Positions 3,854 through 18,656 of a stretch of 18,702 bases of DNA are shown piece by piece. Location of the stretch: positions 1-18,702 of the forward strand of contig NZ_JACUUA010000060.1 of assembly GCF_014859565.1 (NCBI RefSeq). The letters run 5' to 3'. The DNA comes from Marinospirillum sp. Its GTDB lineage: Bacteria; Pseudomonadota; Gammaproteobacteria; Pseudomonadales; Halomonadaceae. The notes below the pieces were generated by a model. That model did not search any database. It saw nothing but the letters and a program-made list of their open reading frames with translations, and was not told the origin of the DNA. Made by a program: the position numbers and the translations under genes. Position 1 is the stretch's first letter, and the number at the start of each line of letters is the position of its first letter.

Positions 3854-4276
3854 TTATTGCTCCTCTGGCTCAAGTGGTTGCGGCTGAAGCTCACTCATGA
3901 CCATTTCATAAGTTTCAAACAACATCAGATCATACGGATCAAAGCCACCCTTCTTAGCGACCCGATAAGCCGTCCACATGCGGTTTCTGTCACCAGGGTT
4001 GAGGTAAGTGTTAATCCAAGTGTTAACCCGCTCTAACACACGACTAAGCAAATCCAGCCACTGCTGCTCCTGCCGTAGTTTTGGCATTGCCACAAGTTCA
4101 ACCACATCAGCAGCCAAGCGATAAACCACAGCTTTTGGATTTTCAGCGTTATTTGGATTACGCTTATCAGCTCGAAACATTTGCAACTTGTACTCGGCAC
4201 GATTCACACGACCGACCAGGTATTCAGTGATCCACGCCAGTTCTGAAACGGTGACTTTTTTATTTGGCCTTCCCAT
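3854..4276 (-). CDS. Unrecognised 140-residue protein, possibly autoregulated
   Basis: I do not recognise this protein. It begins MGRPNKKVTVSELAWITEYL and is rich in charged and aromatic residues, with predicted helices throughout (for example WLDLLSRVLERVNTWINTYL) and an acidic proline-rich tail; there is no signal peptide or membrane segment. The ATG follows AAGGGG at suitable spacing, and codon use matches the backbone, so it is likely real. The GRP-(N)-KK-VTVSELAWI start resembles N-terminal tails of small DNA-binding proteins. Three copies of CGTTA-N6-TAACG lie directly upstream of its start, so it may bind them and control its own synthesis. That link is inference. Confidence 0.7.
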   Translation of the reverse strand: MGRPNKKVTVSELAWITEYLVGRVNRAEYKLQMFRADKRNPNNAENPKAVVYRLAADVVELVAMPKLRQEQQWLDLLSRVLERVNTWINTYLNPGDRNRMWTAYRVAKKGGFDPYDLMLFETYEMVMSELQPQPLEPEEQ

Positions 4277-4294
4277 GTTGACGACCCCTTTTTT

Positions 4295-4310
4295 CGTTAT
4301 CTGATTAACG
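4295..4310. promoter_or_regulatory. Operator-like palindrome CGTTA-N6-TAACG, copy 1
   Basis: CGTTA (4295-4299), six bases, TAACG (4306-4310), extended by one more pair (TCGTTA/TAACGA). It lies 19 bp upstream of the start codon of the 3854-4276 gene, a natural place for repression. Confidence 0.65.
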
Positions 4311-4349
4311 ATAATCTAACAAAAGGGAAGCTGGCTTGCAAGTATTTTT

Positions 4350-4365
4350 CGTTATTATGGTAACG
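4350..4365. promoter_or_regulatory. Operator-like palindrome CGTTA-N6-TAACG, copy 2
   Basis: The same half-sites with the same 6-bp gap; the spacer TTATGG is unrelated to copy 1, so the half-sites and gap, not the middle, are conserved. Its centre is 55 bp from copy 1. Confidence 0.65.
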
Positions 4366-4415
4366 CTAACGCGATGCGCCGTAAGACTGGATGATCAAAA
4401 ATACACACCATTAAA

Positions 4416-4431
4416 CGTTATTTAATTAACG
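4416..4431. promoter_or_regulatory. Operator-like palindrome CGTTA-N6-TAACG, copy 3
   Basis: Third copy with spacer TTTAAT, centred 66 bp from copy 2. Together the three sites span 137 bp of the divergent control region and could act on either neighbour. Confidence 0.65.
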
Positions 4432-4540
4432 GTAAAATGAGAAGGGGTTGCTAGGTCTGGAGTCAATACTAGAACCTGGAAAATTAAATTTTTACTTTTA
4501 AAAACAACAGCTTGAATAACAAAATGTAACCTTTTAAACC

Positions 4541-4569
4541 TTGCTGATATGAACAACAGTTCATATAAT
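4541..4569 (+). promoter_or_regulatory. Promoter with overlapping operator for the radC-like gene
   Basis: TTGCTG (4541-4546) and a consensus TATAAT (4564-4569) are exactly 17 bp apart. The spacer is largely occupied by the palindrome ATATGAAC-AACA-GTTCATAT (4547-4566), whose right arm runs into the -10 box, so a bound repressor would block RNA polymerase. The expected transcription start is near 4576, leaving a leader of about 44 nt. The small HTH protein encoded after radC is one candidate regulator. Confidence 0.65.
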
Positions 4570-4619
4570 TAAGACGCAAGCCAGCCAGACCAGGCGCGGC
4601 GAACCCAAGGAGCAGCAAA

Positions 4620-5141
4620 ATGATACTAAAAAACTGGGATATTCTTGACGACTACCCTGCAACCTTTGCCGGTTACACCAGCCAGCTATTCAGCATTGCT
4701 GAAAAAAAACTGATTACTGATGCGGTGCAAATGATTGAACAGAAAATGACCGCCAGGGTGCTGGAGTACAGTTTCACCAAACCGGAAACGGTGCAGCAGT
4801 ACCTGCAGTTAAAAATGGCAACCCTGGAACATGAGGAAATGCACGCTCTATGGCTGGACAACCAACATTATTTAATCAAGCATGAGGTTTTAGCCATCGG
4901 CACCATTGATGCGGCCAGCGTGTACCCCCGCGAGATTGTGAAAAAAGCACTGCAACAAAACGCAGCTGCAGTAATTATTGCCCACAACCACCCATCTAAT
5001 TTACTGGAACCCAGCAGATCAGACGACGCGATCACGCGCCGAATAAAAGAAGCGTTAAGCACCATAGACATCAGACTGTTAGACCATTTCATTGTGAGTG
5101 CCAGAGGCTGCTACAGTTACGCAAGCCACGGCAACTTATAA
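4620..5141 (+). CDS. RadC-like JAB/MPN domain protein
   Basis: A 173-residue RadC-family protein with the JAB1/MPN metalloprotease-like fold. The metal-binding signature AHNHPSNLLEPSRSDD supplies the H-x-H-P-S...D ligands, followed by the family's LLDHFIV segment. The N-terminal helix-hairpin-helix part of chromosomal RadC is absent, as usual for the short versions on plasmids, islands and prophages. The biochemical role of RadC proteins is unsettled, and the old link to recombination repair is doubtful. The ATG has an AAGGAG ribosome site. A consensus promoter with an overlapping palindrome lies upstream and a strong terminator follows within 10 bp, so this is a compact, separately controlled unit. 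Confidence 0.92.
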   Translation: MILKNWDILDDYPATFAGYTSQLFSIAEKKLITDAVQMIEQKMTARVLEYSFTKPETVQQYLQLKMATLEHEEMHALWLDNQHYLIKHEVLAIGTIDAASVYPREIVKKALQQNAAAVIIAHNHPSNLLEPSRSDDAITRRIKEALSTIDIRLLDHFIVSARGCYSYASHGNL

Positions 5142-5147
5142 ACCAGC

Positions 5148-5171
5148 AGCCCCCGAAAGGGGGCTTTTTTT
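5148..5171 (+). terminator. Rho-independent terminator after the radC-like gene
   Basis: AGCCCCC, a GAAA tetraloop and GGGGGCT form a 7-bp G+C-rich stem followed by a run of T. It lies 7 bp after the radC stop and just ahead of the next small gene, so expression of that gene would depend on read-through or its own start. Confidence 0.9.
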
Positions 5172-5182
5172 GAAACCGGAAG

Positions 5183-5455
5183 GTGAACGTTTTGAAACCA
5201 GATGCACAGCAACACGACCCAGACCCGCAGAGACTGCGGGAGCTAATCGAAAAGAGTGGCCTTACTATTCGCGGCGCTGCTGAACAAATCGGCATTAGTG
5301 ACCGGATGCTGCGCTATTACTTAACGCCAGAAGACAAAAAAAGCCACCGGCCTTGTCCTTACCCCGAACAGTTCGCACTGGAGTCGCTGGCCGCTGCCAC
5401 CGGCGGCGAAGCCGCCCAGCAAGTGCATGGATGCACGCGCAGGCAGGAGCCGTAG
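5183..5455 (+). CDS. Small XRE-like helix-turn-helix protein
   Basis: A protein of 87-90 residues with a helix-turn-helix of the phage-repressor type at about residues 20-45 (LRELIEKSGLTIRGAAEQIG followed by ISDRMLRYYL). The tail is alanine- and glutamine-rich. There is no ATG: GTG at 5183 or, better spaced after GGAAGG, TTG at 5192 is the start. It begins 12 bp after the radC terminator. A role as local transcription regulator, perhaps of the palindromic radC promoter, is inference. The start codon is uncertain; the HTH segment is clear. Confidence 0.7.
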   Translation: MNVLKPDAQQHDPDPQRLRELIEKSGLTIRGAAEQIGISDRMLRYYLTPEDKKSHRPCPYPEQFALESLAAATGGEAAQQVHGCTRRQEP

Positions 5456-5633
5456 CATCCAGGACGGATAGCCAACGGGAGGTTTTAGCAGACTTTGAGC
5501 ACCACTGAAGATGGGCGCGGACGAAGTATAAACGGCACCGCCATCGTCTTTACGCGCCATGATTAACCGGGTTTTAGCGGTGTTGAAGGCACAAAAAAAC
5601 CAACCTGGTGAAACCAGCCAGAGGGCTTTGAGC

Positions 5634-5672
5634 ACGGGGTTTACCCCGCCACCAAAAGGGTGGGAGAAGCAA
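5634..5672 (+). repeat. E3 hairpin module, copy 1
   Basis: GGGGTTTACCCC is followed by CCCGCC...GGTGGGAGAAGC; the second pair contains a G-U wobble compared with the all Watson-Crick pairing in copy 2. It lies about 25 bp ahead of E1 copy A. Confidence 0.5.
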
Positions 5673-5696
5673 GCGAAAAAAGCGCATTTTTGAAAT

Positions 5697-5860
5697 GCCT
5701 GGGAGCAGAAGGTAAACCAAAATAAAGCCAATAAGCTGGCCAGCCAGATGCGCTGAAACTGCGTGGCCGTGGGTTTTGGCCGCAAAAGTTTGAGCGCATC
5801 GGCTGTTGGCCAGCTTTGCTGATGAACCCAAAAAACTAAATGAAAGCACGGCTCTCAGGC
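5697..5860 (+). ncRNA. Candidate structured RNA element E1, copy A
   Basis: A 164-nt block predicted by hand to form one long interrupted stem. P1 is 5697-5706 with 5851-5860; P2 AAGCTGGCCA (5733-5742) pairs with 5807-5816; P3 GATGCGCTGAAACT (5747-5760) pairs with 5787-5800 with one G-G mismatch; P4 GTGGCC (5763-5768) pairs with 5778-5783 around the loop GTGGGTTTT. P1 and P4 each need a G-U pair that exists only if the plus strand is the RNA. This copy lacks both sides of the outer P0 helix seen in copies B and C and has a local hairpin (GCATTT/AAATGC) there instead. Transcription is not shown; no known RNA family is recognised. Confidence 0.6.
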
Positions 5861-5907
5861 AGAAAAAAATGCAATGCAAAACGCTTGCTTGGGCGGGGGT
5901 GGCGGGG

Positions 5908-5947
5908 GCTTCCCCAAACCCGCTGGGTTTTGCGGGGTTGGGGAAGC
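5908..5947 (+). repeat. E2 hairpin, copy 1, with UGGGUUUU loop
   Basis: GCTTCCCCAAACCCGC (5908-5923) pairs with 5932-5947 in 15 of 16 positions around the loop TGGGTTTT (5924-5931). It is preceded by a G-rich run (GGCGGGGGTGGCGGGGG). It is followed by A, not T, so it is not a terminator on the plus strand. Confidence 0.7.
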
Positions 5948-5964
5948 AAAAAAAGGTTTTAATG

Positions 5965-5992
5965 TTTTGCGCTTTTGAGTTTTTACGATTTT
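5965..5992 (-). repeat. 28-nt inverted copy of the parA leader
   Basis: Read on the minus strand this is AAAATCGTAAAAACT followed by CAAAAGCGCAAAA, matching 14918-14945 just upstream of parA in 27 of 28 positions. No gene follows on the minus strand. A shared binding site for the partition proteins, or a relic of an earlier partition locus, would explain it. Confidence 0.7.
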
Positions 5993-6124
5993 ATGGTTTT
6001 GTGTTTATCAGTAATAAGAGCATAACCACTACCGAATCAACCTACACACGCTGCTACCCATCTGATAAATGAATCGAATTATAAGCCAAGTACCTGATGA
6101 ATAACGAATCAGAGAACTGGAAAT

Positions 6125-6343
6125 AGCCGGTGAAGCGCCGGTTTGCAGTGGAAGCCTAGGAGCAGAAGGTAAACCAAAAAAAACCAATAAGCTGGCCAGC
6201 CAGATGCGCTGAAACTGCGTGGCCGTGGGTTTTGGCCGCAAAGGTTTGAGCGCATCGGCTTGTTGGCCAGCTTTGCTGATGAACCCAAAAAACCAAACGA
6301 AAGCACGGCTCTCAGGCTGTAACAGCAAAAGGGGCGCTGGTGT
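6125..6343 (+). ncRNA. Candidate structured RNA element E1, copy B
   Basis: A close copy of A across the shared 164 nt with only a handful of differences, plus 5' and 3' extensions shared with copy C. The extensions supply P0: AGCGCC (6134-6139) with GGCGCT (6333-6338). P1 is 6154-6163 with 6308-6317 and has one mismatch here (A-C). At the base of P3's inner helix an A-to-G change converts an A-U pair to a G-U pair, which keeps the helix as plus-strand RNA but would be A-C on the other strand. P2, P3 and P4 are otherwise as in copy A. Confidence 0.6.
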
Positions 6344-6369
6344 TGATGGTTACCTGAACTTGCCTATTA

Positions 6370-6406
6370 GGGGGTTTCCCCGCCGACCGAAGGGCGGGAG
6401 AGCCGG
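6370..6406 (+). repeat. E3 hairpin module, copy 2
   Basis: GGGGTTTCCCC can fold on itself, or CCCGCC can pair with GGCGGG around GACCGAAG. It is followed by GAGAGCC as in copy 3. It directly abuts the stem-closed domain beginning at 6401. Confidence 0.5.
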
Positions 6407-6539
6407 TTTTGGGCTGCATTGAGAAGTGCGACTTTTCCGGCGCGGGGAGCAGCAAAAGGTATTGGGAGCCTGCGACCTTTACCGCTTGCTGCGGGCGACG
6501 GATTAGAAGCGCTGACCTTTGCAGCCCTAAAAACCGGCT
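6401..6539 (+). other. 139-nt domain closed by a 17-bp stem
   Basis: AGCCGGTTTTGGGCTGC (6401-6417) pairs with 6521-6539 in all 17 positions, with a 2-nt bulge (TA, 6528-6529) on the 3' side. The enclosed 103 nt contain further short complementary G+C-rich segments. It lies between E3 copy 2 and E2 copy 2 and may belong to the same structured unit. Confidence 0.6.
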
Positions 6540-6558
6540 GGGTGGGGGAGGCGGGGGA

Positions 6559-6599
6559 CTTGCTTTAAAGCCGCATGGGTTTTGCGGCTGAGAAGCAAG
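6559..6599 (+). repeat. E2 hairpin, copy 2, with UGGGUUUU loop
   Basis: CTTGCTT (6559-6565) pairs with AAGCAAG (6593-6599), a 3x3 internal loop follows, then AGCCGC (6569-6574) pairs with GCGGCT (6584-6589) around ATGGGTTTT. Stem sequences differ from E2 copy 1 while pairing, loop and the preceding G-rich run are retained. Confidence 0.65.
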
Positions 6600-6630
6600 C
6601 CGCTGAACGTGACGCACCACAACACTAGCA

Positions 6631-6660
6631 GCCCATGATAACGAGCGAGTTATCATGGGC
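6631..6660. repeat. Palindrome with 12-bp arms, CATGATAAC core (first)
   Basis: GCCCATGATAAC (6631-6642), spacer GAGCGA, GTTATCATGGGC (6649-6660). Arms are perfect. It shares the core CATGATAAC/GTTATCATG with the palindrome at 6720-6745; outer bases and spacer differ. Confidence 0.7.
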
Positions 6661-6719
6661 TTGTATCACACGCGATGCGCCAAGGGTTTTGGGAGCTAGC
6701 TGAACCAGTAAAATTGTTC

Positions 6720-6745
6720 GTTCATGATAACTTGTTATCATGAAC
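6720..6745. repeat. Palindrome with 12-bp arms, CATGATAAC core (second)
   Basis: GTTCATGATAAC (6720-6731), spacer TT, GTTATCATGAAC (6734-6745), arms perfect. Compared with the first palindrome, the outer three bases of each arm have changed on both sides together, keeping the symmetry. Confidence 0.7.
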
Positions 6746-6762
6746 CTCTGGATGCCGACCGG

Positions 6763-6792
6763 GTTTCCGCTGCTCGGGCGGGAGAGCCAAGC
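6763..6792 (+). repeat. E3 hairpin module, copy 3
   Basis: CGGGTTTCC then CCGC paired with GCGG around TGCTCGG, then GAGAGCC as in copy 2. It is the shortest of the three copies and precedes E1 copy C by about 30 bp. Confidence 0.45.
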
Positions 6793-6823
6793 GCCTGCTG
6801 AAAAAAACTGGGACACTCGATTC

Positions 6824-7040
6824 AGCCGGTGAAGCGCCGGTTTGCAGTGAAAGCCTGGGAGCAAATGACCAACCAGAACAAAGCCAAGGGCAGGCCAGCC
6901 AGCCGAGCTGAAGCGGTGTGGCCGTGGGTTTTGGCCGCAAAAGCTTGTGCTTGGCGGCTGTTGGCCTGCCTACACAATGCACCAGAACACTAACCGAAGG
7001 CACGGCTCTCAGGCTGGAACAGCAAAAGGGGCGCTGGTGT
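6824..7040 (+). ncRNA. Candidate structured RNA element E1, copy C (diverged)
   Basis: The most diverged copy and so the most informative. P0 is 6833-6838 with 7030-7035, P1 6853-6862 with 7005-7014. P2 has become GGCAGGCCA (6889-6897) with TGGCCTGCC (6962-6970): the T-A pair of copy A is now A-T. In P3 the AAAC/GTTT helix is AAGC/GCTT (6911-6914 with 6943-6946) and the distal part is CCGAGC with GCTTGG (6903-6908 with 6949-6954), again paired, including a G-U. P4 and its GTGGGTTTT loop are unchanged. Such paired changes argue for selection on structure. Confidence 0.6.
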
Positions 7041-7155
7041 AGAAAAAAGACTGTGGCGTGAATTTTAAGGGCGCTTGGCTGGGTGGGTGCAGCGGATCTG
7101 CGCGGAAGCCCCCTGTGGGCTGACGGGCAGACTTTTTGTCTCGGTGCAGTAAAAA

Positions 7156-7773
7156 CTAAGAGCTGGGTACCATACCCATGCGTTTGATGTAATCGTTTAG
7201 ACTGGATGGAGGGATTTCTAAAAGCTTGGCTATGGAACGCTGGCTCAGGTTTTTATCCAGCAGCTTCTGGATTCTTTCTTTTTTAGCGTCCAATTTCAGT
7301 TTTTCAGCTTTACCTGGTGGCCGCCCCAGAATCTTACCGGCCTTCTTTCTTGCTGCTAATGCCTCTTTCGTCCGCATCGAGATAAACTCCCTTTCGATCT
7401 CTGCAGCCATGCCCAAAACCGTTGCGGTAATCGTGGCTTGCAGTGAACCATCAAAGATCATTTTTTGTTTGGCGATATGAACGCTAATTTTCTGCTCAGT
7501 GCATTTTTCCAGCACCTCCAACACCTGCAGGGTGCTCCTCGCTATTCGGCTGATTTCGGCAAAAATCAAAACAGAACCCTGGGGCAGTTCATCCAGCATT
7601 TTTCCCAGCTTCCGCTGCCGCCACTTCTTTTTGCCACTGGCTGTATCTTCAACAAACTCTAAGCCAGAAAACCCCTGAGCATTCGCATACTCAAGGATGC
7701 CGTGGCGTTGGTTATCCACGTCCTGAGCATCAGTTGAAACTCTCAAATAAGCTGTAATTTTCTGTTTGCTCAT
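7156..7773 (-). CDS. Serine recombinase (resolvase/invertase) with C-terminal HTH
   Basis: A complete 205-residue small serine recombinase. The catalytic motif is TAYLRVSTDAQD (serine 13), followed by EISRIARS and the E-helix segment GMAAEIEREFISMRTKEAL. The C-terminal GRPPGKAEKL leads to a basic HTH (about residues 168-200, NLSQRSIAKLLEIPPSSLNDY). Its position 37 bp after the replication gene on the same strand fits a plasmid multimer resolvase. Three copies of GGTGTAACWG lie immediately upstream of and into the replication gene's end (7774-7864), a natural location for its recombination or operator site. It shares the family but little sequence with the truncated recombinase at the left edge. 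Confidence 0.95.
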   Translation of the reverse strand: MSKQKITAYLRVSTDAQDVDNQRHGILEYANAQGFSGLEFVEDTASGKKKWRQRKLGKMLDELPQGSVLIFAEISRIARSTLQVLEVLEKCTEQKISVHIAKQKMIFDGSLQATITATVLGMAAEIEREFISMRTKEALAARKKAGKILGRPPGKAEKLKLDAKKERIQKLLDKNLSQRSIAKLLEIPPSSLNDYIKRMGMVPSS

Positions 7774-7864
7774 GGTGTAACAGAAGCCCCGCCGCTTATA
7801 AGAAAAGAAATTATCCTGTTACACCCTCTAGCCCTTGTCCTACAAGGCTTTCAGGGTGTAACTG
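7774..7864. promoter_or_regulatory. Three GGTGTAACWG repeats at the resolvase start: candidate res/operator
   Basis: GGTGTAACAG (7774-7783), its inverse CTGTTACACC (7816-7825) and GGTGTAACTG (7855-7864) are spaced 42 and 39 bp apart (start to start) in alternating orientation. The first abuts the resolvase start codon; the last is in the C-terminal codons of the replication gene. Resolvases of this family often bind several short sites next to their own gene, but no match to a known res consensus was made. Confidence 0.4.
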
Positions 7865-10438
7865 TACATTTTTTTTAGCCTGAATTTTTAGCTTCATAAC
7901 CGCTGTTTTTCTGGCTGAAAATTTTTCTACATCAGCAAGCGTATTAGCAGAATAAACCCACTGGTCAGCAGCGGTTCTCCAGCTACTTACCCGGCTGGAT
8001 TGCAACTCAAAACCCCAGCCGGTGAGCAGATTTTTTAACCAGGCTGTATGCAGGCGCTTGGGTGCTTTTGCAGCCGGTGGTTTGGTGATCAGATGGTAGG
8101 TTGGTTTGACTGCTTTCCGGAAAGTTGTGCTTAGGCGCTCGGCATCGGTACCAGTAAACCGAATTTCACCGTTTACATCTTTAAGGTCATCAATAATCCG
8201 GCTCACCAGCTCGACCTGCTGGGCTGTGTGCTTTTTGAAGGCAAAAACGCTTTGCTCGGCATCACCAGAAAGTGCATCCAGATCAACACCAGCGGCGGCG
8301 GCTTTGAGCAGGGTTTGCCGTTCAACCTGTTTAATCAGCCCACCAAAAATAGCTTTTTTAGCCAGCTCATGCGGTAGGTTCCCAGCTGAGTCAAAATCGG
8401 CATACCCAAGCTGTAATGCCTGTTCGATCTGATAGCGGGCTAGTTTTGCAGCATCTTTTTCTCTACCGGCACTGACTGCTGATAAATGATCAGCTTCCAG
8501 TTCGTTAATGCGCTCTGCTGTGCGCGTGCTTTCGATCTCTTTCTCTTTGGTTTCCAGCTGCGCCTGTGCGACTTCTTCAATACCTTCTCTATTGGATTCT
8601 TCGTAACAGGTAGAAACTTGAATACTCGCATTCAGCAGGTGACCGTGCAGGATCAGGAAGGGGTTAGAAGAATTGAGGTTTTTTTGCTGCAGGGCTGCAA
8701 TTTGTCCGGTAGTAAAAGTGCAGTTTATTGCTACTTCACCACCGTCTTGCCAAGCCGCTTGCTGGGCTTCTAATTCCAGCTCTTGTGCTGGTATGTATTC
8801 GCGCTGAGGCCGCATAAAATGCGAGTTGGCCGCGATTTTAACGGTGCCACCGGCAGCCCATCTAAACCGTCTTGCTAACTGCCAGATTGCAGGTGCATCA
8901 AGGCTATCATGGGTGATAAAGCCAAAAATGTTGGCCTCAATGCTGGTTACACTGAACCCTGAGCTGAGTACCGGACTGTAGACAATTAATTGATATTCTG
9001 TGGCTTGTGCATTGGGATCAGCTAAAAAACGTGCCTGCTCTTGCTCGGCGGTAGTGCGTGCTGTCAGCAATAAAGAACGACCGGAACACTCGCGTGAATA
9101 GAGCGCATGGGCAGCCTCGGCCCCGCGCCGGGTGGTGCAGAAGATGACAGTTTTTCTGCCAGCTTGAAGGCTTTTAATCACTGATTCATGCAGGGGCTGA
9201 TTGTCTTTCTTCTTTCCATTTACTTTAACGCGCTGGGCCGGGAAGAGTTCAACTCTGGGTGGTAGGTGGGCCTGCTCATTACAGGCAAAAATCGGCAGAT
9301 TCAGCTGCTTAACAAGATGGGCGGTTGTGGGGGTAACATCACCATCGAGGGCAACTATCTGCACCCCGAAGAGCGTACAACCATCCAGTAGCGTCAAAAA
9401 TCGCTGTTTTTGCTGGCCGCTTAAAATGCTGGAGGCACCGAAAAGCAAGCTGGACACCTGGGCGGCTTCGTCGATGACCAGCAGCCCATTTTTAGATGCC
9501 AGGTCGGTGATCAACGGCATCATGCTCTCACGGGTTGCCCCGTGTACGGTGCTGGATATGCCGCCACTCAGTTCCAATAGCTCTGGCGTTTCCGTGTAAA
9601 TGTCCAGCTCCAGGGTTTCTGCATTTTGGCCTGCCAGGCTGCGGAGAACAGTGACGGCCAGAACCGGCCTCCCTGCTTTTCTGGCTTTTTCGATCAACGG
9701 CTTGGCTAGGCCGGAAGTCTTGCCGGTGCCCAAGGGAGCCTGAACAAAGGCACTTTTTCCCTCGGTTAGCGCTTTCTCAAGGCTGGAAAACCGGGTGAAT
9801 TTTTTAACCACCGGAATTGACTGATGCATTGGTGCGGCACGACCAGCCAAGTGATGCGCCCACCATTGTTGGGCTTTTACCAGATCAACACCGGCTTGCT
9901 GTGCGGCTTTTTCTAGTCCTTGGGGATTGATTCCAGCCTTGTGTTCGTAGCAAGCTTTAATTAAGGCTTGGCGTGGGGTTTGGTGGGCAGCACTGACGAG
10001 GGGTTTACCCAGTAACTCACTGATTTTTTCCTGAGCCTGAGCAGCCCTTTTTTCATCTTCTGGCGTGACCAGACCACGCCTTTTTTTATTGCTGAACGCA
10101 GTCAGAATCAGGCGCTCATTCGCCGCCGATTCCTCGGCTTTTTTACGCGCCCATTCGCGCTTTTCATTGGCGGAAAAACTACGCTCATCAGTGATCAGGT
10201 CTTGAGCAGTCAGCCCTACTGCATCGCGGATTTCGCTGTGCGAGTGACCGGCATAGCAGTAAAAAACCACACGGGAGCGGTCGAACTGACTGTCCGGCTG
10301 CATTTCCGTAATAACCAGTTTGCGCTCTTTACGTTTTTTTGAATTTTCGCGGGAACAACAGGGGCAGGCGGCGCGGTGGTCGTGCTTGCCGGATGATTGC
10401 ACAAAATCAAAGAAGGATAGAATCTGCTCAAGCTGCAT
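7811..10438 (-). CDS. Plasmid replication protein: zinc-finger/primase-like N-terminus plus superfamily 2 helicase
   Basis: An 875-residue protein of the type annotated as CyRepA1-family or herpes-origin-binding-like replication protein. The N-terminus has a CHC2-like zinc-binding pattern (CPCC at 25-28, FYCYAGHSH at 59-67) as in DnaG-type primases. A helicase core follows: Walker A APLGTGKT (234-241), LLVIDEAAQV with the DEAA box (323-326), and later motifs such as VYSPVLSSGFSV and the arginine-rich QLARRFRW. The C-terminal third is helical and charged. It probably recognises the origin and unwinds or primes DNA. I chose ATG 10438 because GGAGG precedes it by 9 bp; an upstream TTG at 10483 would add 15 residues. 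Upstream lies a small gene, downstream the resolvase, all on one strand. Confidence 0.88.
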   Translation of the reverse strand: MQLEQILSFFDFVQSSGKHDHRAACPCCSRENSKKRKERKLVITEMQPDSQFDRSRVVFYCYAGHSHSEIRDAVGLTAQDLITDERSFSANEKREWARKKAEESAANERLILTAFSNKKRRGLVTPEDEKRAAQAQEKISELLGKPLVSAAHQTPRQALIKACYEHKAGINPQGLEKAAQQAGVDLVKAQQWWAHHLAGRAAPMHQSIPVVKKFTRFSSLEKALTEGKSAFVQAPLGTGKTSGLAKPLIEKARKAGRPVLAVTVLRSLAGQNAETLELDIYTETPELLELSGGISSTVHGATRESMMPLITDLASKNGLLVIDEAAQVSSLLFGASSILSGQQKQRFLTLLDGCTLFGVQIVALDGDVTPTTAHLVKQLNLPIFACNEQAHLPPRVELFPAQRVKVNGKKKDNQPLHESVIKSLQAGRKTVIFCTTRRGAEAAHALYSRECSGRSLLLTARTTAEQEQARFLADPNAQATEYQLIVYSPVLSSGFSVTSIEANIFGFITHDSLDAPAIWQLARRFRWAAGGTVKIAANSHFMRPQREYIPAQELELEAQQAAWQDGGEVAINCTFTTGQIAALQQKNLNSSNPFLILHGHLLNASIQVSTCYEESNREGIEEVAQAQLETKEKEIESTRTAERINELEADHLSAVSAGREKDAAKLARYQIEQALQLGYADFDSAGNLPHELAKKAIFGGLIKQVERQTLLKAAAAGVDLDALSGDAEQSVFAFKKHTAQQVELVSRIIDDLKDVNGEIRFTGTDAERLSTTFRKAVKPTYHLITKPPAAKAPKRLHTAWLKNLLTGWGFELQSSRVSSWRTAADQWVYSANTLADVEKFSARKTAVMKLKIQAKKNVQLHPESLVGQGLEGVTG

Positions 10439-10651
10439 AACGGGGAGCCTCCATGCTTTTTTGCCCTGAAATTTTTGGGGCAATTTTTCTTGTTAGTTGG
10501 CGTCCTTCTGTTTTGTTATAAAACAATTTAACGCAGGTAGATAACTTGCGCTCTTGATTAAGAGCAAATAAACTGATCATTGTGATTACCTTGTAATGGA
10601 TTACACAGGTTAGAGGGTGTTACCAGCACCCTCTAACCAGCCTCTCAATTC
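10439..10651. other. Intergenic region upstream of the replication gene
   Basis: This 213-bp A+T-rich stretch holds GCTCTT-GATT-AAGAGC (10550-10565), TTGTT-ATAA-AACAA near 10513-10525, two GATTAC direct repeats near 10583-10605, and the hairpin at 10608-10638. There is no clear iteron array. It is a candidate promoter and possible origin region. Confidence 0.45.
10608..10638. repeat. Hairpin with 12-bp perfect arms after the 10652-10879 gene
   Basis: GGTTAGAGGGTG (10608-10619) and CACCCTCTAACC (10627-10638) around TTACCAG. It follows the stop of the small minus-strand gene by 13 bp but has no T-run. Its TAGAGGGTGTTAC matches the inverse of 7818-7830, just beyond the end of the replication gene, in 12 of 13 bases. 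Confidence 0.6.
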
Positions 10652-11263: not shown

Positions 11264-11281
11264 CCGAATAATACGTTGGTT

Positions 11282-11315
11282 TATCCCGGACGCTTTGCCA
11301 ATATTGGTCGGGATA
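11282..11315 (+). repeat. Nested hairpin after the 10973-11263 gene
   Basis: TATCCCGG (11282-11289) pairs with TCGGGATA (11308-11315), and the loop contains the perfect palindrome CCAATATTGG (11298-11307). No T-run follows directly, so termination is uncertain. Confidence 0.4.
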
Positions 11316-11357
11316 GACTGGGTACGTCGGACTCACCCCCCTTACCTGCGGTTTTTT

Positions 11358-11381
11358 TTATTTTCGGAAATCCGAAAATAA
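11358..11381. promoter_or_regulatory. 11-bp-arm palindrome upstream of the ATPase operon
   Basis: TTATTTTCGGA-AA-TCCGAAAATAA is perfectly symmetric, preceded by a run of eight T and followed closely by a smaller palindrome, TGTCC-ATT-GGACA (11386-11398), and then the ribosome site of the ATPase gene. It could be an operator for the downstream cluster. The T-run is on the 5' side, so it could also terminate minus-strand transcription. Confidence 0.55.
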
Positions 11382-11413
11382 CAAATGTCCATTGGACAAG
11401 GAGAACCCCTGCT

Positions 11414-12157
11414 ATGCGATACCTGAAACTGAAAAAACACTGCCGTCCCCGCGCTGATGGCACGGTGATTGTTGACCCCATCATTGTTGATTCCCCCCGC
11501 AAATACGCTGCACAGCGAGAACGCCGTGAAACCTACATCAGTAAAAGAAAATGTCATCTGGTGTTTGGTGCCCACGATTCGGGCAAGAGCCGCTGGCTCC
11601 AGCGGATGCACGGAAAATGGGAAAAAATCTGGGGTGCAAAAATTAGTGCTGCGCCGGTTTTTTTGGGGGCATTACATCCAGTCAGTACCTGGACTGACCA
11701 ACCCCATGTTGAGAAATGGCACGATAAACTGGAAAAAGCCGCTGCAGAGCATGATCCCGATTACACCCTTCGGCCCTGGGCAAAGCTGAATCAGCAACAA
11801 AGATCCGAGCGGTTGGCCGACTACCTGGCGGACACCGGTGCGCTTTTGTTTATTGACGACGCGCACAAACTCACTGGCCGAAAACTTGAACTGGCGCGGC
11901 GTTGCGTGATTTCAGCCAATATCTGGCTGATTGCAACCAGCCAAGAAAACAGGTTACCGCCGAACCTACGCACGATAATTGACCGGCGCGAACCCCAGCG
12001 CACACGACTGATGACTGATGCCGCTTACGATGCCACCAGCATTGTTATGTGGCTGATCATCGTGATTGCCATAGGCATTGGCTGGTGGGAAGCCGCTCTG
12101 ATCCTCGGTGGTTTAAAAGTTCTCGGCAGCGGGAGACGCGCAGCGCGACCCGACTAA
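11414..12157 (+). CDS. P-loop ATPase with C-terminal membrane segment (Zot/AAA-like)
   Basis: A 247-residue NTPase. Walker A is GAHDSGKS (52-59), Walker B ALLFIDDA (143-150), a sensor-1-like LIATSQ sits at 172-177 and a possible arginine finger at DRREP (190-194), the layout of AAA-type ATPases. A hydrophobic segment at about 208-238 (VMWLIIVIAIGIGWW and following) should anchor it in the inner membrane, leaving a short basic tail. Size, P-loop-plus-anchor design and the adjacent exported protein recall Zot-like morphogenesis ATPases of filamentous phages, although there the membrane segment precedes a periplasmic domain that is missing here. Start: ATG with AAGGAG 10 bp upstream. It opens a tightly packed six-gene run ending with endonuclease I. 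Confidence 0.8.
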   Translation: MRYLKLKKHCRPRADGTVIVDPIIVDSPRKYAAQRERRETYISKRKCHLVFGAHDSGKSRWLQRMHGKWEKIWGAKISAAPVFLGALHPVSTWTDQPHVEKWHDKLEKAAAEHDPDYTLRPWAKLNQQQRSERLADYLADTGALLFIDDAHKLTGRKLELARRCVISANIWLIATSQENRLPPNLRTIIDRREPQRTRLMTDAAYDATSIVMWLIIVIAIGIGWWEAALILGGLKVLGSGRRAARPD

Positions 12158-12177
12158 CACTGAAAAGGAGTTCAGAA

Positions 12178-12954
12178 ATGAAAAGAGTAAAACTGAATAA
12201 AACGGTTTTTTTGCTGATAATTGCTCTTTTTTCGGCGCAATTAGCCGCAGAAGAACAACGTGGCTGGTGGCCGTTGCATAACCCCTGGGCCGATGCCGCC
12301 AGCGACCCAGAACCCCCTCCACGGGTACGCCCCTACGAGCTGCCGCGTTTTGACGAACAAACCCAGGGCGACCACCATACACAAATCCCCCCGCTGCAAT
12401 CTGCTCCTTATGTTGATGGTGACCTTATTTTTAAAAGCGTGACCAACTGCTACCCAGAACCTAGTAAATTTCGCTTGGAGCTTGAGTTAGAAGGGCGTTA
12501 TGGCAACCGGGGGTACTATGACCCCACCGGCCAGACTGATCTGGGCGGCTATTACGCAGGAATTGTTGCGCGGATGCCGCTCTACTCAGCAACGGAACTG
12601 AATAGAGAACGAGAGCGCGAGTACATGCGGCGCACCGCCACTGCTGAAACCATCGGGCAACTGATGGCCGCGCTTGCCCAGCGCAATCATGCTGTCCGTG
12701 AACTGGGGCTTTATTCCAGCTTGGAAGCCAGGTCACAGGTGCGGGTTGCTCAGGGTGTGGTTGGTGTAGATGAGCAAGTTCAGCACCTGACGAAAGTTGC
12801 TCAAGCACAACAAGCACTGATCATGGCGGAAACTGCGCTAGTGCAGCATCGTTTAATACTCGTTGGTCAGTGTGACGACCGACACGCACAAACTGTTAAC
12901 GGCTACTTAAAGCGGATTACACGGCTACCGAGGGCAGGCCATGAAACGCCATAA
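12178..12954 (+). CDS. Exported TolC-like outer-membrane efflux domain protein (single half)
   Basis: A 258-residue protein with a clear signal peptide (basic MKRVKLNK, hydrophobic FLLIIALF, cleavage near AQLAA). After a proline-rich linker, the pattern RLELELEGRYGNRGYYDPTG then YYAGIVARMPLYSATELNRE is a TolC-type beta segment leading into a long alpha-helix. The helical part (about 145-245) has the heptad alanine/leucine/glutamine character of the TolC hairpin and ends in a conserved-type LILVGQC. TolC proteins normally contain two such halves in over 400 residues, so this is a half-size form that would need to oligomerise. Ribosome site AAGGAG precedes the ATG. It follows the ATPase gene by 20 bp. 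Homology is judged by pattern only. Confidence 0.65.
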   Translation: MKRVKLNKTVFLLIIALFSAQLAAEEQRGWWPLHNPWADAASDPEPPPRVRPYELPRFDEQTQGDHHTQIPPLQSAPYVDGDLIFKSVTNCYPEPSKFRLELELEGRYGNRGYYDPTGQTDLGGYYAGIVARMPLYSATELNREREREYMRRTATAETIGQLMAALAQRNHAVRELGLYSSLEARSQVRVAQGVVGVDEQVQHLTKVAQAQQALIMAETALVQHRLILVGQCDDRHAQTVNGYLKRITRLPRAGHETP

Positions 12955-13183
12955 GAAAAAGCAGATCCGGCTTTTCTGGTGCGACTCTGCGAGGTGCTGG
13001 ATTGCGGACTACCCCTATAACTGGATTGCCGAATACTGTTACGGCACAACAGAAATACCGCTCTATGTCGGGAAAGAAGCTGAGCCCGAAGAATTACGCA
13101 TGGAACTATTGGCACAAAACCCCGGCTGGGCGTGTTACATCTGCTGGCCGGAGTGGAGGGAGGGAACCGATGAAATGGATTAA
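12941..13183 (+). CDS. Small tryptophan/cysteine-rich hypothetical protein
   Basis: An 80-residue protein, basic at the start (MKRHKKKQIRLFWC), with an unusually high number of tryptophan, tyrosine and cysteine residues and an acidic end. Its start overlaps the TolC-like gene by 14 bp and its end overlaps the YdjM-like gene by 14 bp, so all three are probably translated together. There is no membrane segment and no domain that I recognise. That it is real rests on position and on codon use like its neighbours. Confidence 0.6.
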   Translation: MKRHKKKQIRLFWCDSARCWIADYPYNWIAEYCYGTTEIPLYVGKEAEPEELRMELLAQNPGWACYICWPEWREGTDEMD

Positions 13184-13691
13184 CCATGTCGCCATAGGCG
13201 GCGCAACTACTGCCCTGATTAACCCCGCATTGGTGCCGGTCGCCATGTTGGGCGCTACTGCCCCCGATTGGATGGAATGGATCGCTAAAGGCATTGGCCG
13301 ACCCGTTAAACACCGTGGACCGACTCATTACTTAGCTGTTTGGTTGGTTGCACTGCTGGCCGCATGGATATTGGAGCCGACCGGTGTACTTGCTGCTTTT
13401 GCCTGGGGCGGCTTAACCCACATCATTTGTGATGCTATGACGGTTTCCGGTGTGCCCTTTTCGCCTTATAGTGACAGGCGGTTTCATTTATTTGGTGGGC
13501 GTTTTCGGACAGGTGATCCAGCTGAATATGCCATTTCATTTGGCGTGGTGGCGGCCTGCGTTGGGGTGTTTATGATGATCGGCAGCGCCTCAAGCGGCTG
13601 GTACCCATTTTTTTATGATTGGCATGGTTTATACAACCAGGGGGTGATTGATGGGAGCGAATGGCGGGCAAATCGTTTCAGATTCTTCTAG
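13170..13691 (+). CDS. YdjM-like inner-membrane protein (DUF457, metal-dependent hydrolase family)
   Basis: A 173-residue membrane protein of the YdjM/DUF457 family. Family signatures are visible: an early NHVAIGG, LGATAPDWMEW, KHRGPTHYLAVWLV and GGLTHIICDAMTVSGVPFSP, whose conserved histidines and aspartates give the putative metal site; hydrophobic helices fill the rest. The chosen ATG at 13170 follows GGAGGGAGGG, and gives the family's MKxxxHxxxG start; longer upstream readings of this frame lack a ribosome site and would overlap the previous gene entirely. In E. coli YdjM is SOS-regulated; function in this cluster is unknown, possibly envelope lipid or wall chemistry. Confidence 0.85.
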   Translation: MKWINHVAIGGATTALINPALVPVAMLGATAPDWMEWIAKGIGRPVKHRGPTHYLAVWLVALLAAWILEPTGVLAAFAWGGLTHIICDAMTVSGVPFSPYSDRRFHLFGGRFRTGDPAEYAISFGVVAACVGVFMMIGSASSGWYPFFYDWHGLYNQGVIDGSEWRANRFRFF

Positions 13692-14879: not shown

Positions 14880-14930
14880 TTCACTTTTACCAGGCAACTG
14901 GCTAAAATCATTTTTACAAAATCGTAAAAA
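14880..14930 (+). promoter_or_regulatory. parA promoter with overlapping operator
   Basis: TTCACT (14880-14885) and TAAAAT (14903-14908) are 17 bp apart. The palindrome TTTTTAC-AAAATC-GTAAAAA (14911-14930) covers the expected transcription start, the position of an autorepressor site in partition operons. Bases 14918-14945 are repeated in inverse orientation at 5965-5992. Confidence 0.6.
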
Positions 14931-14954
14931 CTTAAAAGCGCAAAAGGTGAAAAG

Positions 14955-15581
14955 ATGATTTACAGCATCCTGAACCAGAAGGGCGGCGTAGGAAAAACAA
15001 CGCTTTCCGTCAACTTGGCGGCCAGCTTTGCCCGTGGCGGAGCGCGTGTTCTGCTGCTGGATGCTGATCCCCAGGGCAGCAGTTTAGACTGGGCTGCAGC
15101 GCGGGAAGATGAACCCCTTTTCACTGTGCTTGGCTTACCACGACCCACGATCCACAAAGAAATTACCCAGCTGGCTAAGGATTACGACCACGTTTTTATC
15201 GACGGGCCACCCCGCGTAACAGAGCTGGCCAGATCCGCGATTATGGCCGCTGACGTGGTGCTGATCCCCGTGCAGCCCAGCCCTTATGATGTTTGGGCGG
15301 CTGACGAAGTGGTGCAGCTGATCAAAGAAGCCCAGATTTATAAAGAAAGACTGAAAGCCTTTTTTGTAATTAACCGTAAAATCGTAAATACAGCAATCGG
15401 GCGCGACGTGGGCGAAGCCCTGGAAAATTATCAACTGCCGGTGCTGGCCAGCAGCATTAACCAGCGGGTGGTTTTTGCAGAAACGGCTGCTGTTGGTAAA
15501 GCCGTTTTTGAAACCAAAGACAAACAGGCGGCTGAAGAAATTGAAGCCATCAAGAAAGAACTGCAGGAGCGCACAGCATGA
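14955..15581 (+). CDS. parA: ParA-family partition ATPase (type Ib)
   Basis: A 208-residue deviant-Walker ATPase that moves plasmid copies along the nucleoid before division. The N-terminus has QKGGVGKTTLSVNLA with the signature lysine, followed by VLLLDADPQGSSLDW, FIDGPPR and the later ADVVLIPVQPSPYDVW. The short length and absence of an N-terminal HTH mark the small ParF/type Ib class, which relies on a separate ribbon-helix-helix partner for DNA binding and repression. AAAGGTG supplies the ribosome site. The stop overlaps the next start as ATGA, so the pair is coupled. A promoter with an operator-like palindrome lies directly upstream. Confidence 0.95.
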   Translation: MIYSILNQKGGVGKTTLSVNLAASFARGGARVLLLDADPQGSSLDWAAAREDEPLFTVLGLPRPTIHKEITQLAKDYDHVFIDGPPRVTELARSAIMAADVVLIPVQPSPYDVWAADEVVQLIKEAQIYKERLKAFFVINRKIVNTAIGRDVGEALENYQLPVLASSINQRVVFAETAAVGKAVFETKDKQAAEEIEAIKKELQERTA

Positions 15582-16112: not shown

Positions 16113-16826
16113 TCAGGAACCCGACACATACGCCTTATTAAAGTTATTACAAAAGTGAACAGATGAAGTCACTATTGAAGGGTCTAGTTTAACATTAAAA
16201 TCTTCGTATATTATTTCTGATACAATTAAAGGCAGTAAATTATAAAGATCATCAATAGCACTTTGGTTACCAGTGATGAGTGAATAAAAAGACCGGCCAT
16301 CAATTACACGAATATCTTCCCTGTATGGCAATGTCATATGAGATTGATTGTCGGAAGGGATAAAAGGTTTATTATAAACAGTGGCGTTTTTAGGTAAAAT
16401 CTCAACATAGTAACCAGTATAACCAGGATAACCATTTAGCTTGTGTTCTAGATCTCTGTAAATAGAAACTTTATGATTACCTTTTGTGGTGTTGTGCTTG
16501 TTTTTGATTTCAGCAATTATCTTTTTTCCATGGTGCACAATGTCAACCACATTCCCTATAGGCAAAAGAGTTACACCGTCAACTGATCCAATTATTTCTT
16601 CATGCAGTGTACCTATTGCATTTTGCTTTGTTTTTTGTATTTGTCTTTCATGCTCTTGTTTCATCCATTGATCCAAACTAATATTTTGAGACAATGAATC
16701 TATTACAGCCGAGAAACAATCCAAGGTGTTACGATAGATGTCTTGTCCTACAATTTGAGCTTGATATACTCTTCTGATACTGCCGCGTATAGCTTCTTTA
16801 AGTTTTGTTTTATCAAATGCCGACAT
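16113..16826 (-). CDS. Eco47II/Sau96I-type restriction endonuclease
   Basis: A 237-residue protein resembling the Eco47II restriction endonuclease family (about 240 residues). The conserved IIGSVDG segment (78-84) precedes the nuclease core NVVDIVHHGKKIIAEIKNKH, where D95 and E106-x-K108 form the PD-(D/E)xK site, then NHKVSIYRDLEHKLNGYPGY and YYVEILPK. Relatives cut GGWCC (Eco47II, SinI) or GGNCC (Sau96I). The ATG has a strong AAAGGAG ribosome site. It is transcribed away from the methyltransferase gene across a 266-bp control region. Low GC relative to the adjacent partition genes points to acquisition as a cassette. Exact specificity cannot be read from sequence. Confidence 0.85.
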   Translation of the reverse strand: MSAFDKTKLKEAIRGSIRRVYQAQIVGQDIYRNTLDCFSAVIDSLSQNISLDQWMKQEHERQIQKTKQNAIGTLHEEIIGSVDGVTLLPIGNVVDIVHHGKKIIAEIKNKHNTTKGNHKVSIYRDLEHKLNGYPGYTGYYVEILPKNATVYNKPFIPSDNQSHMTLPYREDIRVIDGRSFYSLITGNQSAIDDLYNLLPLIVSEIIYEDFNVKLDPSIVTSSVHFCNNFNKAYVSGS

Positions 16827-17028
16827 AGTTGTTAATCTCCTTTAGCCGAGTGATTTCTTTATTAAGAAAAACGCAGCGTATCATACAGGTAAATTTTGGA
16901 GAATTCACAAAAATACCGTAATTAAAAAAGTCTTTTATAAACAATAAGTTAAAATATCTGAAACAGCTTTAGGAAGACTATAGCGCAATAGTAGACACCT
17001 TAAAAAGTAGATGGGCTTGAAAAAATAC

Positions 17029-17057
17029 TGGACCTGTATAACGGAATGGTGTATATT
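17029..17057 (+). promoter_or_regulatory. Candidate methyltransferase promoter containing a GGACC site
   Basis: TGGACC (17029-17034) and TATATT (17052-17057) are separated by 17 bp and lie upstream of the methyltransferase start. The -35 box contains GGACC (17030-17034), a predicted target of this very R-M system, so methylation could alter promoter strength. An alternative -10, TATAAC at 17037-17042, lacks a well-spaced -35. Confidence 0.4.
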
Positions 17058-17092
17058 GATACAGTGTCTAACGTGAAAGTGGAAACGTCATT

Positions 17093-18331
17093 ATGCATGG
17101 TATCCAAAATAAAGCCAGCTACAGTATTGAAATGCTAGCAGATATACTATCTCAATCTAAAGCAACAATAAACGCAAGGGTTAAAAAAGGTGAGTTAAAT
17201 GTTTGTAAATATACAGGAAAAATAGATATAAATAATTTGCTTGAATTTAAAGAAATTAACTCTATGGTCGAAAGTAATTGGGATGAGGAGCACTCAATAA
17301 AACCAATAAAAGAATTTAAAATGGTTGAGCTATTTGCTGGCGGCGGCGGTCTAGCCATTGGAATGGAGCAAGCAGGACTTAAAAGTATATTTCTGAATGA
17401 AATAGATAAAGATGCCTGCAACACATTAAGACATAACAGGCCTGAATGGAATGTTGTGGAAGGGGATATTTCTAATATTAACTTCAAAGAAATAAATCAT
17501 GAGGTTGATGTGCTGACTGGCGGTTTCCCATGCCAAGCCTTTTCTTATGCGGGAAAAAGCTTGGGTTTTGAAGATACACGTGGGACGCTTTTTTTTGAAA
17601 TGGCACGAGCTATAAAAGAAACAAAACCTAAATTATTTCTTGCTGAGAATGTTAAAGCTTTATCAACTCATAATAACGGAAAGACACTAAATACAATAAA
17701 AAATATAATCAATGAAATAGGTTATGATTTAATTGATGCAAGGGTTCTCAAGGCTATATTTTATAAGGTGCCGCAAAAAAGAGAAAGACTAATAATGATT
17801 GGGATAAGAAAGGATTTATCAGGAAAAGTTCGTTTTCATTGGCCTTCACCATACAAAAGAATAATGACAATACGAGACGTGCTTTATGCAGGAGAACTAT
17901 ACGATACAGATGTACCTAAATCTGAAGGACAAGAGTATCCGAAAAGAAAAAAAGAAATTATGTGTAAAGTACCACAGGGAGGATACTGGCGAAACTTACC
18001 AGATGATTTACAACGTGAATATATGGGGGGAAGCTACTTTTTAGGTGGGGGTAAAACAGGTATGGCAAGACGCCTATCCTTAGATGAGCCAAGTTTAACA
18101 TTAACAACTTCACCTGCACAAAAACAGACTGAACGCTGCCATCCTATTGAGACAAGGCCATTGCAGGTGCGTGAGTATGCGAGAATCCAAACATTTCCTG
18201 ATAATTGGGAGTTCAAAGGGTCAAAAAATTCTGCTTATAAGCAAATTGGAAATGCGGTACCAGTAAACATGGCAAGAGCATTAGGTAATTCATTGGTAAG
18301 ATTGTTGAATGATATCGAAAAAATAAATTAA
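17093..18331 (+). CDS. C5-cytosine DNA methyltransferase (SinI/Eco47II type) with N-terminal HTH
   Basis: A 412-residue C5-cytosine methyltransferase. Motif I is VELFAGGGGLAIGMEQAG (78-95), the catalytic GGFPCQAFSYAG has cysteine 147, ENV is at 185-187, motif VIII reads VPQKRERLIMIG and motif X QIGNAVPVNMARALG. The target-recognition stretch from GGYWRNLPDD to SPAQKQTERCHP is typical of enzymes for GGWCC/GGNCC. Residues 10-35 (SIEMLADILSQSKATINARV) form an HTH ahead of the catalytic domain; in SsoII/Ecl18kI-type enzymes such an extension binds the intergenic operator and represses the methyltransferase gene. The start ATG lacks a strong ribosome site. It protects DNA from the divergently encoded endonuclease. 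Confidence 0.93.
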   Translation: MHGIQNKASYSIEMLADILSQSKATINARVKKGELNVCKYTGKIDINNLLEFKEINSMVESNWDEEHSIKPIKEFKMVELFAGGGGLAIGMEQAGLKSIFLNEIDKDACNTLRHNRPEWNVVEGDISNINFKEINHEVDVLTGGFPCQAFSYAGKSLGFEDTRGTLFFEMARAIKETKPKLFLAENVKALSTHNNGKTLNTIKNIINEIGYDLIDARVLKAIFYKVPQKRERLIMIGIRKDLSGKVRFHWPSPYKRIMTIRDVLYAGELYDTDVPKSEGQEYPKRKKEIMCKVPQGGYWRNLPDDLQREYMGGSYFLGGGKTGMARRLSLDEPSLTLTTSPAQKQTERCHPIETRPLQVREYARIQTFPDNWEFKGSKNSAYKQIGNAVPVNMARALGNSLVRLLNDIEKIN

Positions 18332-18356: not shown

Positions 18357-18656
18357 ATGAATTCAAACAAATTGATTTTCAATAAAAATTATTTCGAAGA
18401 GAAAATACCGCCAACATTTTATGACCATAGTAATAGAAATGATATTTGCCCATCTATCTACTCAAGATTGCTTGGTATTAAGATTTTCATAGACAGTAAA
18501 AACCCTGAGGAAAGAGAGGAGCCAAATTACCCAAGATTCTCAGTTTACAAAACAAATGAAATTGGAGAAACAGAAGAGATAGCGTACGAGACAGAAGTTT
18601 GGCAAGAAATATTAGATTTTATTGAAAAATTAAAACAAAGCGGAACTGGGGTTTGA
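18357..18656 (+). CDS. Small hypothetical protein after the methyltransferase
   Basis: An unrecognised 99-residue, acidic, soluble protein with A+T-rich codon use like the methyltransferase gene 25 bp upstream, so the two belong to one cassette. AGGATGGA precedes the ATG. The last three codons and the stop lie inside the 42-bp flanking block (18646-18687), so its 3' end may have been rebuilt by the event that joined the cassette to that block; the original C-terminus could be different. It might be an R-M accessory protein, but no motif supports a function. Confidence 0.65.
   Translation: MNSNKLIFNKNYFEEKIPPTFYDHSNRNDICPSIYSRLLGIKIFIDSKNPEEREEPNYPRFSVYKTNEIGETEEIAYETEVWQEILDFIEKLKQSGTGV

Follow-up and report, generated by a model that had tools for sequence, protein, structure and literature searches.

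A modular array of predicted structured units flanked by aca1-like and resolvase genes in Marinospirillum

Proteins of the Aca1 family are regulators that control anti-CRISPR genes, and their genes mark anti-defence loci. There are several kinds of structured element on mobile DNA with which a locus beside such a gene can be compared. For example, Racr are non-coding RNAs from mobile elements, and anti-CRISPR operons may include them (PMC10651486). GOLLD, ROOL and OLE are large and highly structured RNAs whose function is open, and GOLLD and ROOL are encoded by phages and prophages (PMC12286853). In plasmid RSF1010, the ssiA/ssiB hairpins are recognised in one strand by a replication protein (PMC4434180). 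A megaplasmid of Lactobacillus salivarius encodes an lncRNA that is confined to one lineage, and its function has not been found (PMC5643018). Here we analyse an array of about 1.5 kb without evident genes (5636-7137) in an 18,702-nt stretch of Marinospirillum sp. DNA, hereafter the window. An earlier note had read this region as three isolated copies of a folded element. We revise this reading to one modular array of four units, which follow each other in the order A, B, D, C (Table 1).

Table 1. Positions of the parts of the array and of the neighbouring genes in the window
Feature	Positions	Strand	Remarks
radC (RadC-like JAB domain)	4620..5141	+	same strand as array; terminator-like hairpin 5148-5165 after it
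aca1 homologue (HTH repressor)	5183..5455	+	probable start TTG 5192; directly upstream of array; PDB 7vjn
Wrapper A, left half	5636..5675	+	GGGGTTTA, P_out 5' 5644-5653, GGGTGGGAG 5658-5666, variable helix 5' 5667-5675
X core, copy A	5697..5866	+	P1, A-rich internal loop, P2-P4, apical loop TGGGTTTTG at 5770-5778; z -6.46
Wrapper A, right half	5882..5947	+	variable helix 3' 5882-5890, GGGCGGG 5891-5897, P_out 3' 5898-5907, Y_A 5908-5947 (loop TGGGTTTTG 5924-5932)
X core, copy B	6125..6343	+	outer helix P0, without wrapper; loop 6226-6234
Unit D, left half	6370..6418	+	GGGGGTTT, P_out 5' 6378-6384, GGGCGGGAG 6392-6400, variable helix 5' 6401-6418
Unit D, insert Z	6419..6519	+	different hairpin where A and C hold X; from folding of the stretch
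Unit D, right half	6520..6599	+	variable helix 3' 6520-6539, GGGTGGG 6540-6546, P_out 3' 6550-6556, Y_D 6559-6599 (loop TGGGTTTTG 6576-6584)
Wrapper C, left half	6761..6795	+	GGGTTT 6761-6766, P_out 5' 6767-6773, GGGCGGGAG 6776-6784, variable helix 5' 6785-6795
X core, copy C	6824..7040	+	outer helix P0; loop 6925-6933
Wrapper C, right half	7070..7137	+	variable helix 3' 7070-7080, GGGTGGG 7081-7087, P_out 3' 7089-7095, Y_C 7097-7131, then CT5 (terminator-like)
Serine resolvase gene	7156..7773	-	convergent with array
Replication protein, CyRepA1-like helicase	7811..10483	-	130.4 bits, below NCBIfam cut-off 200

Fold and covariation of the X core

The three copies of the X core share a common set of nested helices, as the earlier note had claimed, and each folds below all 200 of its dinucleotide shuffles (z -6.46 in A, -4.47 in B and -3.17 in C; 0/200 shuffles as good). 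A covariance model built from A, B and C scores them at 293, 275 and 248 bits, respectively, and nothing else in the window above 8.7 bits. When the three-copy alignment is folded with RNAalifold, 68 pairs are obtained, 13 of which show two-sided changes in at least one copy; within the 44 pairs of P1-P4, 97.7% of the cells are paired. The changes on both sides of P2 and P3 in C relative to A are present as claimed. In the statistical test the covariation is beyond chance, with 7 of the 44 P1-P4 pairs changed on both sides compared with 2.3 in shuffles (0/500), and its source is three paralogues in one molecule, which lack the independence of a comparison between genomes. If the partners are slid by 1-3 columns, only 0 or 1 two-sided paired change is left in P1-P4, versus 7.

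The pairwise comparisons A-C and B-C were set against a null on 47 core pairs, including a 3-pair minor helix besides P1-P4. All seven two-sided changes between A and C are still paired (null mean 0.89; 0 of 200,000 trials reach 7), and between B and C seven of the eight are paired and one is not. Some observations count against covariation. An unpaired cell accompanies three of the six single-sided changes between A and C and three of the five between B and C, and substitutions between A and C are about as frequent in paired columns (19/93) as in unpaired ones (17/70).

The outer helix P0 is present in B and C as described, but the view that A has none is wrong. In a fold of the whole gene-poor stretch, A has a different closing helix, AAGCAAGCG/CGCTTGCTT, which surrounds GCATTTTT/AAAAATGC, and both enclose P1. 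The copies are distinguished by single-base indels, which argue against a coding origin, a reading that we reject, and bear out the proposal that they are non-coding. The compensatory changes among the copies support a selection-like conservation of the fold, as the earlier note had suggested, and we place high confidence in the fold being under selection.

Wrapper, fourth unit and shared loop

Copies A and C lie within a wrapper that is also found in a fourth unit, D (6370-6599), where the X core is absent; copy B has no wrapper. The order of the wrapper is GGGTTT, P_out 5', GGGYGGGAG, variable helix 5', insert, variable helix 3', GGGYGGG, P_out 3' and hairpin Y, and the insert is X in A and C and a different hairpin, Z, in D. 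The units are about 170-380 nt long, with up to 115 predicted pairs. The variable helix has 9 contiguous anchored pairs in A, 10 in D and 11 in C, and its sequence differs from unit to unit while the G-rich flanks are conserved. Among 1,000,000 pairs of sites drawn at random from the window, only 4 have at least 9 such pairs. At aligned positions, two-sided changes are found in 7 of 9 pairs of the variable helix and 3 of 7 pairs of P_out, and no pair is broken, which is partly due to the choice of these helices by eye as paired. P_out is identical in A and D; only C differs. The three Y hairpins are predicted to share one layout, in which a two-by-two internal loop separates two stems and a loop closes the tip, and the sequences of their stems differ.

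On the + strand, the stability z values of the units are -11.42 for A, -7.85 for D, -4.44 for the unwrapped B and -2.98 for C, with 0/60 shuffles as low in each. The + strand controls give +0.69 (spacer 5951-6124), -1.55 (a parA stretch) and +0.64 (a rep stretch). Two controls lean low, the 5' flank 5456-5639 on the + strand (z -1.75) and the spacer 5951-6124 on the minus strand (z -2.13). A scan of the + strand in 200-nt windows shows a moderate difference, with a mean z of -1.84 inside the array and -0.55 outside, and its lowest single window, 7801-8000, lies outside the array; the unit-wise tests are clearer.

Although their stems differ, the three X copies and two of the Y hairpins all end in the loop TGGGTTTT. 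There are five copies of TGGGTTTTG in 5770-6933, all on the + strand and at predicted hairpin tips, compared with a chance expectation of 0.42 for the whole window and both strands. These are not five independent events, since the X copies share descent and Y_A and Y_D may do so too. Outside the array there is one further copy, at 17562, and the third Y hairpin, Y_C, is without the common loop. The stem that closes the loop is GGCC/GGCC in the X copies, CCCGC/GCGGG in Y_A and GCCGC/GCGGC in Y_D. We considered an intramolecular pseudoknot between the loop and AACCCA of the 3' linker (TGGGTT:AACCCA), which is possible in A and B. It is absent in C, where no complement of at least 5 bases to the loop is found within the element. 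Thus, intramolecular pairing cannot explain why the loop is conserved, and a partner in trans would be the simpler reason.

Strand, neighbouring genes and relatives

We have fair confidence that the array acts in the + strand. When the four units are folded with Watson-Crick pairs only, the single mismatches are 6 G.T, 0 A.C and 8 others, in a sample that is small and comes from related copies. The RNAalifold structure of the three copies contains 21 G.T cells and 3 A.C, a count that is biased by the G.U pairs which the program allowed. A + strand that works single-stranded is expected to show more G.T than A.C, and the bias of the mismatches is thus in its favour. The minimum free energy of 5456-7160 is -747 on the + strand versus -651 on the minus strand, and base composition contributes to this difference. 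Because the minus strand of the units likewise folds much better than its shuffles (z -8.01 for A, -6.67 for D, -4.27 for B and -3.35 for C), the evidence for the strand rests on the mismatches and the energy difference. Several results speak against a + strand transcript. No sigma-70-like promoter is found in 4270-7900, compared with 2.7 expected in shuffles, and a terminator-like hairpin separates radC from aca1. There are 14 terminator-like sites versus 5.9 expected, three of them on the minus strand inside the array (from 6314, 5857 and 5741). A + strand site of this type (7112-7127), in which Y_C is followed by CT5, closes the array. With moderate confidence we consider that the array would be an RNA, and RNA is favoured over single-stranded DNA.

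The earlier note had placed the element beside replication genes. A rep gene is indeed next beyond the resolvase gene, but the array itself lies directly between the aca1-like gene and the resolvase gene. The aca1 product matches Aca1 (PDB 7vjn) with E 1.5e-21 over residues 3-70, and among the matches listed it shares 37-60% identity with HTH genes on Xanthomonas and Pseudomonas plasmids. The gene upstream of aca1 is radC, from which it is separated by the terminator-like hairpin, and no acr gene is recognised there on non-systematic inspection. Of inverted repeats such as those that Aca1 binds in its promoter for repression, there are only candidates, at 4290-4435. On other plasmids the surroundings of Aca1 relatives vary. 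One relative overlaps an acrF gene (locus L067), and at another locus (L069) two hypothetical genes lie between acrE1 and the HTH gene, and the aca gene is followed by 2.26 kb without annotated genes, in which there are several open frames and no direct repeats. In a sample of 30 of 179 records, many of the further P. aeruginosa entries have an acrF gene under the match. On a Xanthomonas plasmid a hypothetical gene precedes the Aca1 relative, and the P. syringae and P. fluorescens plasmids examined have no acr gene beside it.

Among the 5 Rep matches listed, one of which is the window's own, the closest relative (86%; best 7,995 candidates scored) is encoded by a contig of 17,562 bp from Marinospirillum sp. 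MEB164, and an Aca1 relative (81%) by a contig of that organism with an equal length. These two relatives suggest that the window is probably a plasmid of that kind. A single-protein search found no relatives of Rep and the AAA-ATPase in viral contigs.

In agreement with the earlier note, which recognised no known RNA family, a search of the whole window against the 4227 families of Rfam 15 gives 0 matches at the gathering score. There are 11 weak matches in 5400-7160 up to E 5, the best with E 0.12, all far below gathering scores. Rfam includes CRISPR direct-repeat families, and none of the 11 is a CRISPR repeat; all are miRNA, snoRNA or sRNA families. By blastn there is no credible homologue in 72,556 plasmid records, and the same holds for 50,697 phages. 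At 1e-5, 6100-7060 has no match in the plasmids and 5690-7060 none in the phages. With X copy B and E up to 10, 13 plasmid records are returned, all at E 8. With 5456-7155 and E up to 0.5, there are 4 plasmid records and 0 phages, and the best of the four (E 0.1) is a Lelliottia plasmid, at a place after traK where no gene is listed.

Searches of IMG/VR and GTDB genomes with exact patterns gave no credible homologue, a weak form of absence since diverged relatives are missed in this way. The core 21-mer occurs in 0 stretches of viral contigs and in one of genome contigs, which by eye is coding (aminotransferase-like). A 17-mer occurs in 16 viral stretches, none of which has X flanks by eye, and 13 of them read as one similar terminase-like coding sequence. 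For GCACGGCTCTCAGGCNG there are 11 viral stretches, 0 of which match model R1 at E up to 1, and the exact wrapper pattern occurs in 0 stretches. When the model was run on the backbone relatives L020-L025, it gave 4 matches with E no higher than 10, the best of which (E 0.036, 12.9 bits) is taken as noise along with the others. In 32 other Aca1 loci (28 viral, 4 plasmid) there are 4 matches, the best with E 0.21 and none credible, and L026, L027 and the non-Aca1 locus L018 give one match (E 0.51). Of 34 loci considered for TGGGTTTTG downstream of aca, on the aca strand and within 1.5 kb, 2 are too short to measure, and the loop is found in 0 of the remaining 32, one of which offers only 386 nt. 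No description of the element was found in the titles or abstract openings of the literature matches listed.

Possible roles and comparison with known systems

We hypothesize, with a probability of roughly 0.45, that 5636-7137 is a modular structured non-coding + strand RNA that would serve as a multivalent scaffold or sponge with trans-binding loops. The four related units would lie in one RNA ended by the terminator-like hairpin, and transcription would come about probably by read-through from the radC-aca1 side. Rigid stems would hold out the five copies of the loop UGGGUUUU, all of which may bind one partner in trans, either a protein or a nucleic acid. The variable helices would be spacers only, in which the pairing matters and the sequence does not. 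Because aca1 adjoins the array, we think that the most likely use as a sponge would be the titration of a host defence factor, followed by that of a plasmid factor. The missing common loop of Y_C and the lack of a credible match in the 32 other Aca1 loci speak against the RNA hypothesis. Our confidence that the array serves counter-defence is low. A further step would be a class of anti-defence RNAs, Aca1-associated multivalent decoys that would titrate a guide RNA or a defence protein of the host through UGGGUUUU loops borne by exchangeable stems, and would do so without mimicking CRISPR repeats; we regard this as a long shot.

Alternatively, the hairpins could form in the + DNA strand, as origin-proximal sites for priming or initiation that are recognised by the plasmid Rep. 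A plasmid primase is known to recognise a 40-nt hairpin site, ssiA, specifically (PMC4434180), though the units of the array, with their predicted pairs numbering up to 115, are far larger. The G.T bias is compatible with single-stranded DNA as well, the resolvase and rep genes lie beyond the right edge of the array, and the array contains two palindromes of the form ATGATAAC-n-GTTATCAT as well as 36 nt that repeat the region upstream of parA in inverted orientation. A switch of GC skew as at a replication origin is also found, with the cumulative minimum of the window at 5401, by the left edge of the array (final value -6; block-permutation P 0.0022), but part of this minimum comes from the G-rich sequence of the array itself. 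Autonomous replication with a related Rep, CyRepA2, is reported to require both its ORF and the region upstream of that ORF (PMC10079941). In the window the region upstream of rep begins at 10484 and is not the array, a weak objection since a further site is possible. The T5 terminator-like hairpin at the end of the array also argues against a replication element of this type, which we consider rather unlikely.

It is improbable, in our view, that the array is unselected palindromic DNA, that is, duplicated or MITE-like modules without RNA function whose pairing is kept by hairpin-templated mutation or by recombination of the arms. Hairpin-templated correction could imitate covariation between paralogues, and the nested and shuffled modules (X with or without wrapper, wrapper with or without X), the missing promoter and the lack of homologues in the blastn and exact-pattern searches would all fit such an origin. 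However, templated repair of the arms explains neither why different stems bear an identical loop nor why the flanking G-rich strands are conserved. The 6 G.T versus 0 A.C mismatches likewise speak against it, and inspection by eye shows no target-site duplication at either B or C. The chance is slighter still that the units are Racr-type anti-CRISPRs, which mimic CRISPR repeats and trap Cas proteins. The aca1 homologue directly upstream would suit this idea, since racr genes can sit in anti-CRISPR operons, and 90 candidate repeat units are reported on plasmids (PMC10651486). However, those on plasmids showed no acr association, for which the authors suspect insufficient data (PMC10651486). 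A Racr of known type is unlikely because the Rfam matches include no CRISPR family and the units are much larger than a single repeat. We found no support for CRISPR-repeat mimicry among these matches.

If the array is transcribed, as we favour, it would be an undescribed large structured RNA with an unusually plain design rule, in which the loop and the G-rich strands are constant and the helices are freely replaceable. It would also offer a concrete and testable candidate for anti-defence RNAs of a kind other than mimics of CRISPR repeats. Should it act as single-stranded DNA, it would instead be a structured element of replication, and an unusually large one.

Racr are solitary CRISPR-repeat mimics (PMC10651486), whereas the array has four large multi-helix units and no CRISPR family among its Rfam matches. 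GOLLD, ROOL and OLE each have one complex fold (PMC12286853), whereas the array would be a chain of related units, with no Rfam match at the gathering score. The L. salivarius lncRNA is, like the array, encoded by a plasmid; it is one RNA of 520 nt whose expression is proven and for which the published abstract mentions no repeated modules (PMC5643018), whereas the array is built of repeated modules. ssiA, to which a role in replication would liken the array, is one 40-nt site (PMC4434180), whereas the array extends over about 1.5 kb and shows compensatory changes in long helices.

Repeats in and around the array

Within the array of folded elements, two palindromes of the form ATGATAAC-n-GTTATCAT separate units D and C, against a mean of 0.00 in shuffles. 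The spacer after unit A carries one arm of an operator- or centromere-like inverted repeat, the other arm of which lies immediately upstream of parA, and this repeat has an additional shorter partner. Upstream of both radC and the gene at 3854-4276 (-), three repeats with CGTTA-n-TAACG symmetry form a candidate operator. The two arms of a longer inverted repeat lie at the window's right end and about 1.2 kb from its left end.

Positions of repeats and genes in the window
Feature	Position
42-nt inverted repeat, 95%	1165-1206; 18646-18687
CGTTA-n-TAACG repeats	4290-4435
36-nt inverted repeat, 89%	5957-5992; 14918-14953
20-nt partner of the 36-nt repeat	15372-15391
Palindromes	6635-6656; 6724-6741
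AAA ATPase and YdjM-like hydrolase	11276-13691
Eco47II-like restriction endonuclease and adjoining Dcm-type cytosine methyltransferase	16113-18331

Plasmid genes and relatives

The endonuclease and methyltransferase are likely a restriction-modification pair. The AAA ATPase matches plasmid proteins at 46-51% among the matches listed; together with the YdjM-like hydrolase, it is common to small Moritella, Thiothrix and Vibrio plasmids, the remaining genes of which are different. In the Moritella marina plasmid (L021, 17285-22146 in its own coordinates), small genes are separated by repeated CGTTATCACC-type units, in our reading resembling integron attC cassettes.
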